Shown here: positions 61,259-63,040 of the stretch, piece by piece
How positions within the stretch are numbered: position 1 is the stretch's first letter
How the letters are laid out: every line of letters starts with the position of its first letter
Source of the DNA: Phycisphaerales bacterium
GTDB lineage: Bacteria; Planctomycetota; Phycisphaerae; Phycisphaerales; SM1A02
Assembly (NCBI GenBank): GCA_009691805.1
Contig: SIAK01000008.1
Coordinates: 1-64,000 of the forward strand
Direction: 5' to 3'
DNA: 64,000 bases
The notes under the pieces: model-generated
Database searches by the model: none
What the model saw: only the letters and a program-made list of their open reading frames with translations
What the model was told of the DNA's origin: nothing
Translations under genes and position numbers: made by a program

Positions 61259-62062
61259 TTAGAATTGCGTGGCGGGGTAGATCGCGCTGGTCTTCGGCGT
61301 TTCATGTACGCGAACGCAACGCGCTTGCAGGCCGGCGTTCGCAAGCGCAGCTTCGAGATACTCGAAACAGATCTTTGCGATGTTTTCGACGGAGGGATTC
61401 AACTTCGCAAACTCAGGGCAATCAAGATTCAGATGACGGTGGTCGAACCTACGCATGATTTCGTTTTCAACTGCGGCATCCACAGCGTCGAAGGCACCCG
61501 TGCTGCCCATTGGCACAGCGCAACGCACCTCAATGCGATAGTTGTGCCCATGCCCGTTGGGGTTGTTGCACTTCCCGAAAATGCGACGATTCTCTTCATC
61601 GCTGCGATCCGCGCAGTGCAATCGGTGTGACGCGGCAAACTCATACGAGGCGGTAATCTCAATCGTGGGTTGCGGCATGGGTGTGCACAGTGGCGAATGC
61701 GGTCGTGTCTCGGTGAGCAAGCATTGGATGCGCTTTGTGGGAGAGAGATCAAGCGCTATCGAATGGAGTCGAATGTGTTTTTCGCTCTCAAGGCTATGGG
61801 CGAGCGCGTTCGCGGCGGTTGGAAGCGTGTGGAAGATCGAGCGGTGTTGGGCGGAACTTGCCGCAAGCATCGGCGCAACTGTTTCAAAGACAGCGCGATC
61901 AATCTGACTGATATCGAGGATGTAGCCTGTTTGCGCATCAGGACTGCCGTGAACGGTAGTTTCAAGTTCAATCCAGGTTTCAAGTAGATCGCATGCAGGG
62001 GAACTGCCCTCGGATGGAGCCATTTCGTGAAGAAAAAACTTGGTGACACGGGTCAGAAACAT
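61259..62062 (-). CDS. tandem-domain 6-pyruvoyl-tetrahydropterin synthase / QueD-like protein
   Basis: The ATG at 62062 gives 267 residues. Residues up to about 120 form a PTPS-like T-fold half (VTKFFLHEMAPSE, TGYILDISQIDRAVFE) without zinc histidines. The second half is a full PTPS domain with FAASHRLHCADRSDEENRRIFGKCNNPNGHGHNYRIEV and FDHRHLNLD, giving the zinc His triad and catalytic Cys. The enzyme makes 6-carboxytetrahydropterin for queuosine or a related pterin. TTG at 62068 is an alternative start. Confidence 0.86.
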   Translation of the reverse strand: MFLTRVTKFFLHEMAPSEGSSPACDLLETWIELETTVHGSPDAQTGYILDISQIDRAVFETVAPMLAASSAQHRSIFHTLPTAANALAHSLESEKHIRLHSIALDLSPTKRIQCLLTETRPHSPLCTPMPQPTIEITASYEFAASHRLHCADRSDEENRRIFGKCNNPNGHGHNYRIEVRCAVPMGSTGAFDAVDAAVENEIMRRFDHRHLNLDCPEFAKLNPSVENIAKICFEYLEAALANAGLQARCVRVHETPKTSAIYPATQF

Positions 62063-62177
62063 GAGCAAGGAACCCTACGGGAAGACGGCGCGGAGGATGC
62101 GAACGGCAGTGGCAATCTGTATAGGACTCGGCGCTGAGAATTTCACTAGAACGTCCACATTGTTCGAGTGCACCACT

Positions 62178-62205
62178 TGATCAGGTCGAAACAGATGATA
62201 CTTTC
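62178..62205 (+). promoter_or_regulatory. candidate promoter of a short transcript
   Basis: TTGATC at 62178-62183 and TACTTT at 62200-62205, 16 nt apart, with TG one base before the -10 element, resemble a housekeeping promoter with extended -10. Predicted transcription start is near 62212, at the foot of a GGGGCA/TGCCCC hairpin. Confidence 0.45.
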
Positions 62206-62211
62206 TGAGCA

Positions 62212-62299
62212 TGGGGCAGTTGCCCCAGTTTGGTGAGCGTTTCATTTGCCCCCGGAAGGGCCTTAGTCTGAGCGAAAGCTCGACTGGGGCCTTTTTTTT
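62212..62299 (+). ncRNA. candidate short RNA or attenuator leader
   Basis: A unit of about 88 nt starts at the promoter above. The first hairpin (62213-62228) is a 7-bp stem TGGGGCA/TGCCCCA. A single-stranded stretch then includes a second TGCCCC copy at about 62248, and the terminator hairpin follows. The second TGCCCC could pair with the first GGGGCA, and its C-run with the G-run of the terminator, so alternative folds exist. No known riboswitch was recognised. It ends 40 nt before the YdjY-like lipoprotein gene. Purely structural evidence. Confidence 0.4.
62259..62299 (+). terminator. strong intrinsic terminator with GAAA loop
   Basis: A stem of about 14 bp (GGCCTTAGTC, bulged T, GAGC, loop GAAA, then GCTC, GACTGGGGCC, with two G-T pairs) is followed by eight T residues. 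It is one of the best terminators in the window and lies between a minus-strand gene and a plus-strand gene, so it must end some plus-strand transcript starting after 62068. Positions could be off by one. Confidence 0.85.
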
Positions 62300-62338
62300 A
62301 TGTGCGGCGTGCGGTTAGTGTGCGGTCGTGCGTTTTTT

Positions 62339-63040
62339 ATGATGAACATGCTTCGACTCTATGCCTCTGCCATTGCATCCACACTTCTGATTGGATGTGC
62401 GACGGCGCCGCGCCATGCCGGGCTCGCTGACTTCGCGCAAGGCTTGCGAGTGGATCGAAGTGCGAAGTGTGTGGAGGTTGATGCGGAAATCGCGATCGAT
62501 GTCGGTGTGCTCGAAGCGGCAGCGTGCTTGCACAAGACGCGCGAGCATGAATCACTCGTCGTGGTGCGGGCGCTTCCGAGCGCGTTGCACGCCGCGATGT
62601 TGCTCGCAGGATTCGAACCAGGCAAACCTGGGGTGTGGAGTGAATTGTTTCTTCCATCACGCGCGTTTGATCGATTGGAGTTGAAGCCACCCAGCGGCGC
62701 GCTGCTCGCGATCGATGTGCGACTCGCGGATGGAACGCTTGTGCCGCTGTCGTCATGGATTCGTTCGACAGACGGCGCGCGCGCATTTCCACTGCACCCA
62801 TGGGTCTTCGCGGGATCCGTCTTTGCGCCAAATCCAAAGTCGTGGAAGGAACCAGGCGAACACTACGTCGCCGACTACACGGGACAGATCATCGGTATCG
62901 TCACCTTCGGCGATGAGGTGATTGCGTTCGACGAAGTGCTTCCCGATCGCGTTGCATTCGCCGAGCCGGACTGGGAAGTGGACTCCACGAAGATTCCACC
63001 GCCAGGAACACCTGTGATTCTCGTGATTCGCGCGCGTTAG
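62339..63040 (+). CDS. YdjY-like lipoprotein
   Basis: The ATG at 62339 (a frame-open extension to 62300 abuts the terminator T-run and is rejected) gives 233 residues with a lipobox STLLIGC. The domain QGLRVDRSAKCVEVDAEIAIDVGVLEAAACLHKTREHESLVVVRALPSALHAAMLLAGFEPGKPG is typical of YdjY-like proteins, here followed by PLSSWIRSTDGARAFPLHPWVFAGSVF and YTGQIIGIVTFGDEVIAF. YdjY-type proteins are exported; function unknown. The 3' end overlaps ruvC by 4 nt (convergent). Confidence 0.78.
   Translation: MMNMLRLYASAIASTLLIGCATAPRHAGLADFAQGLRVDRSAKCVEVDAEIAIDVGVLEAAACLHKTREHESLVVVRALPSALHAAMLLAGFEPGKPGVWSELFLPSRAFDRLELKPPSGALLAIDVRLADGTLVPLSSWIRSTDGARAFPLHPWVFAGSVFAPNPKSWKEPGEHYVADYTGQIIGIVTFGDEVIAFDEVLPDRVAFAEPDWEVDSTKIPPPGTPVILVIRAR

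Follow-up and report, generated by a model that had tools for sequence, protein, structure and literature searches.

The cyanobacterial small RNA (sRNA) Yfr1 consists of a 5' hairpin, an unpaired centre carrying an ultraconserved pyrimidine-rich word, and a 3' hairpin followed by a U tail (PMC2190773). Among the Firmicutes, LhrC and other sRNAs carry a UCCC motif, and Hfq was not needed for the LhrC interaction that was tested (PMC4132741). We analyzed a 64,000-nucleotide stretch of a Phycisphaerales genome (contig SIAK01000008.1; hereafter the window), in which a predicted sRNA shares with Yfr1 the layout, an unconserved 5' loop, a conserved neighbourhood and a clade-wide distribution. The fold of the window copy placed two stem-loops around an unpaired stretch, the 3' one being a terminator, and 5' structure was also in excess among relatives. 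However, its conserved core is CCCCCGGAAG instead of the ACUCCUCACAC of Yfr1; no unpaired ACUCCUCACAC was found in the element, where the seed reads TTTGCCCCCGGAAG. Unlike in Yfr1, the seed abuts the terminator stem, the 5' hairpin is not universal, some families carry several copies and the phylum is a different one. The element would thus be an sRNA built like Yfr1 and unrelated to it in sequence. With the LhrC-type sRNAs it has in common a C-rich single-stranded motif and the presence of several copies in some genomes, whereas their motif is the CU-rich UCCC, repeated three times per RNA (PMC4132741), and no sequence or taxonomic link joins both groups.

A scan with Rfam 15 at the gathering score detected only a tRNA elsewhere in the window and no family in 20 relatives, in agreement with the original prediction, which had recognised no known riboswitch pattern here. 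At loose E values the best weak match at the interval was BjrC68 (RF02353), which also has two hairpins with a terminator, but it scored 15 bits where gathering requires 39 (E value of 0.24), which is chance level. The Rhodopirellula-1 motif, listed without an Rfam number (PMC2864571), ranges over Proteobacteria and Planctomycetes and so differs in its range from the Phycisphaerales element. A literature search found no planctomycete sRNA of this kind. The element is real, conserved and undescribed in the libraries searched, and would form a new family within a kind of sRNA that is already known.

The unit lies on the plus strand between a PTPS-domain protein gene (61259-62068, minus strand; PF01242, 105.4 bits) and a YdjY-domain lipoprotein gene (62342-63040, plus strand; NF040466, 117.5 bits for a cut-off of 50), both outside the RNA. 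The YdjY domain of this lipoprotein was recognised by NF040466 and not named by Pfam. A promoter-like block, a 5' hairpin, a second TGCCCC and a strong terminator without an ORF had been proposed for this interval; all of them were present in the sequence as described, and an ORF search found no plus-strand ORF of at least 60 amino acids within the unit. The predicted RNA, of about 88 nt, would extend from 62211 to 62299 on the plus strand, as judged from the position of the -10 element and from where the T tract stops. The putative promoter comprises a -35-like hexamer TTGATC (62177-62182), whose TTGAT is kept in G003 and degenerate in G002, and an extended -10, TGA-TACTTT (62196-62204; TGN-TACTTT), seen as ATGRTACTTTC in three genomes of the genus. 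It is followed by the hairpin TGGGGC-AGTT-GCCCCA (62212-62227; stem 62212-62217 with 62222-62227 in the fold), the second TGCCCC (62247-62252) and the conserved seed TTTGCCCCCGGAAG (62245-62258), recognised by comparison of relatives, whose core CCCCCGGAAG (62249-62258) directly precedes the terminator. The intrinsic terminator stem-loop (62255-62295) pairs 62255-62268 with 62282-62295 (14 pairs) and 62270-62273 with 62278-62281 (4 pairs) around a GAAA loop (62274-62277), and ends in a tract of eight T (62292-62299). A 95-nt fold starting at 62205 reached -47.1 kcal/mol, compared with a shuffled mean of -31.9 (z = -4.96), and none of 200 shuffles was as good. A short non-coding RNA gene with its own promoter and terminator, at about 62211-62299 of the plus strand, is a well-supported prediction.

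The promoter at 62177-62204 is weak by consensus, and a generic promoter and terminator scan reported neither the promoter block nor the terminator at the unit. In an alignment of the window with two other genomes of the genus, both TTGAT...ATGRTACTTTC and the portion running from TTGCCCCC through to the T tract were conserved, whereas the 5' arm separating the promoter from the seed half had diverged. A conserved promoter, a diverged middle and a conserved seed and terminator half read as the footprint of a short putative transcription unit from about 62211 to 62299. When the 163 elements collected, which are related by descent and not independent, were searched for sigma-70-like promoters (9 of 12 or better) with the -10 at -75 to -15, 65 had one, compared with 7 in a control window; the enriched promoters placed the -10 some 20 to 50 nt upstream of the seed.

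In a first BLAST search among relatives, the match started only from about 62241 onward. The 17-mer TTTGCCCCCGGAAGGGC, searched with one mismatch allowed, was present in 76 of the 151 genomes of this little-studied family, almost always as a single copy; its reversed control occurred in none of the 151. A covariance model built from 39 copies (R1) detected the element at E ≤ 0.001 in 130 of the 151 genomes, usually as one copy, and in 89 of the 98 of good quality. Applied to 248 genomes of the class, it recovered all the family members drawn and also several further families of the order, in which a genome may carry as many as eight copies, as does the complete chromosome of Planctomycetes bacterium syqfu; outside the order Phycisphaerales it gave weak matches only, at chance level. 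A phylum-wide search for CCCCCGGAAG followed by a T tract gave 1 to 18 matches per element-bearing genome of the order, counting overlapping T-tract ends separately, and 0 for the reversed pattern; outside the order the matches were at control level and not terminator-like. Among named genomes, 101 stretches were found, nearly all from Phycisphaerae, and a few had titles naming other taxa. Several of the latter, including those titled Alicyclobacillus and Desulfobacteraceae, were chance matches with no terminator. Stretches labelled Kuenenia and Rhodopirellula did hold real elements, and these carriers are probably mis-binned or misnamed. Restriction of the family to the order Phycisphaerales forms part of the overall explanation favoured below, and is held with the same somewhat better than even confidence. 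As to a phage origin, no viral contigs with the 19-mer were found. In syqfu and UBA7800 (L187-L191, L195), several near-identical copies also agree over roughly 70 nt upstream, which suggests recent duplication of the whole unit.

The covariation search proposed with the original prediction supported the terminator hairpin. Among 39 relatives the stem varied in sequence with compensating changes (94.7% of cells paired, 53 changed on both sides), and its covariation score of 0.375 exceeded those of shuffled (0.187) and slid (at most 0.110) alignments. The word CCCCCGGAAG was constant across copies with quite different terminator stems, a constancy partly built in, as the element lists, the patterns and the model were collected or trained on this core word. 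The 5' hairpin, expected to be conserved as well, was not conserved in sequence, although 5' structure is common: 44 to 47 of 162 relatives had hairpins below z = -2 between promoter and seed, compared with 6 to 9 in controls, and the hairpins of different lineages had different sequences. The 5' hairpin of the window copy is therefore one instance of a common, not universal, feature. The switch-like pairing of GGGGCA with TGCCCC that had been read from the window turned out to be peculiar to this copy, as relatives lack GGGGCA in the 5' arm.

In fold computations the C run of the seed had a mean unpaired probability of 0.71, compared with 0.51 with control flanks (p about 1e-9). GGG was rarer upstream of the seed (53 versus 118 and 116), whereas CCC was not depleted. 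Since the 5' parts are depleted in GGG and the C run is more accessible than with flanking DNA, these models suggest that selection keeps the C run free. The run likewise persisted in elements whose terminator arm has lost its match to GCCC. For the window copy, the unpaired probability of the seed was only 0.24 in the 88-nt fold, while a slightly longer fold left the seed free; the outcome thus depends on precisely where the 5' end lies.

We consider it probable, with some reserve, that the element is a gene of its own for a trans-acting sRNA that works without Hfq and pairs through a C-rich seed. To what comparison provided (the conserved unit, the promoter placement, the terminator covariation, the autonomy from neighbours and a seed accessibility above controls), this explanation would add the following steps. 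Transcription from a sigma-70-type promoter would begin near 62211 and yield an RNA of some 88 nt. This RNA would fold into a variable 5' hairpin, a linker in which the seed (U)UUGCCCCCGGAAG is constant and for the most part unpaired, and a 3' stem-loop acting as intrinsic terminator. The CCCCCGG run may then pair with G-rich stretches of several mRNAs, probably near ribosome-binding sites, and the pairing would change the translation or stability of these targets without Hfq. In this reading, the sRNA probably controls other genes by base-pairing through its unpaired run of five Cs. Hfq, which an Hfq-dependent sRNA requires to be encoded in the genome, was not detected (PF17209) in any of 61 genomes of the order, while control genomes were positive. 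As these bacteria lack a recognisable Hfq, the element bears on how base-pairing RNAs would work there, and an sRNA found throughout the clade, with so clearly delimited a seed, could lead directly to the first sRNA regulon of the order.

RNAs of the CsrB/RsmZ type titrate CsrA through many GGA motifs. An unlikely alternative to base-pairing is that the element is a protein-binding sRNA of this sort, in which CsrA is bound by the GGA of CCCCCGGAAG, which a GCCC/GGGC stem with a CCGGAA hexaloop could present, and is thereby titrated. As in that type, a GGA lies in the conserved core and CsrA is present in the host genomes: of 61 from the order, 60 encode it, mostly as two paralogues (in the window's genome, G000:C4:18345-18500 and G000:C41:119206-119370); furthermore, the GCCC/GGGC stem can form in 118 of the 163 elements. 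However, the element has one core GGA instead of many, its 5' part shows no excess of GGA or ANGGA, and GGA is replaced by GAA in nine elements. The other 45 elements cannot form the stem, yet their C run stays. With a single core GGA, no enrichment, the GAA variants and an unconserved hexaloop stem, titration of CsrA is a weaker explanation than trans-acting base-pairing.

The usual gene order is PTPS (opposite strand), element, YdjY-domain lipoprotein (same strand) and RuvC (opposite strand), and the original prediction left the choice between a small RNA and an attenuator of the lipoprotein gene. Its first half is favoured by the promoter, the terminator, the wide conservation, the covariation and the lack of an Rfam family. 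According to the second, the element would be a cis-acting leader and the sRNA its prematurely terminated product, which we regard as quite improbable. For 54 of 163 elements, distant families included, the lipoprotein gene does follow in the same orientation no more than 400 nt downstream, and the window offers little space for a separate promoter. Yet its orientation is not constant: it is inverted, facing the terminator, at ten loci that keep the element, and is absent from genus g18 and several other genomes that also keep it, while in other families the element adjoins other genes. No antiterminator pairing is conserved either, and the GCCC/GGGC alternative hairpin, considered as an antiterminator, is broken in 45 of 163 elements. 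Because the element persists with the lipoprotein gene inverted or lost and with other neighbours elsewhere, its general function is not to serve a single gene as leader or attenuator. The trans-acting sRNA that we favour would instead be transcribed from its own promoter to its own terminator independently of its neighbours, as these computational comparisons indicate. In g18 (L028-L036), whose genomes measure about 1.9 Mb, both the PTPS gene and the lipoprotein gene are missing at this place and the element has been doubled, with the two sRNA copies inverted or in tandem; the second copy mostly reads CCCCCGAAAG. Finally, that the unit is a mere promoter-driven terminator or transcription insulator, its conserved letters serving termination alone, is very unlikely, since, although no structure is better conserved than the strong terminator, termination requires neither an invariant unpaired CCCCCGG upstream of freely varying stems nor multiple copies with their own promoters.

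Concerning the targets of the putative trans-acting sRNA, no perfect 11-nt complement of the seed occurred elsewhere in the window's genome and no conserved one was found as a target. Across some 1.1 Mb of retrieved loci, drawn mostly from the phylum, CGGGGG and CCGGGG showed no clear general enrichment before start codons; AGGGGG appeared 10 times versus 0, a difference not trusted among the many words tested. A tentative wider proposal, possible rather than probable, is an order-wide post-transcriptional regulon in these Hfq-lacking Planctomycetota, in which an ancestral single-copy sRNA with an invariant CCCCCGG seed would act on a conserved set of mRNAs, possibly together with the two CsrA paralogues, and would have given rise in some lineages to families of paralogues whose terminators changed freely. 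In family f6 (G041, G045, G053; L286-L300), TGCCCCCGGAA was far above its reversed control (58 versus 7 in G045). This excess was rejected as a target signal, for it includes tandem 12-mers, repeat-like hairpins AAAGCCGGCGATGCCCCCGGAATCATCGCCGG and coding sequence. At two loci (L194 and L287) the word CCCCCGGAA is present three or four times in a row, and at L194 the repeats run into a terminator, resembling an sRNA with several seeds.
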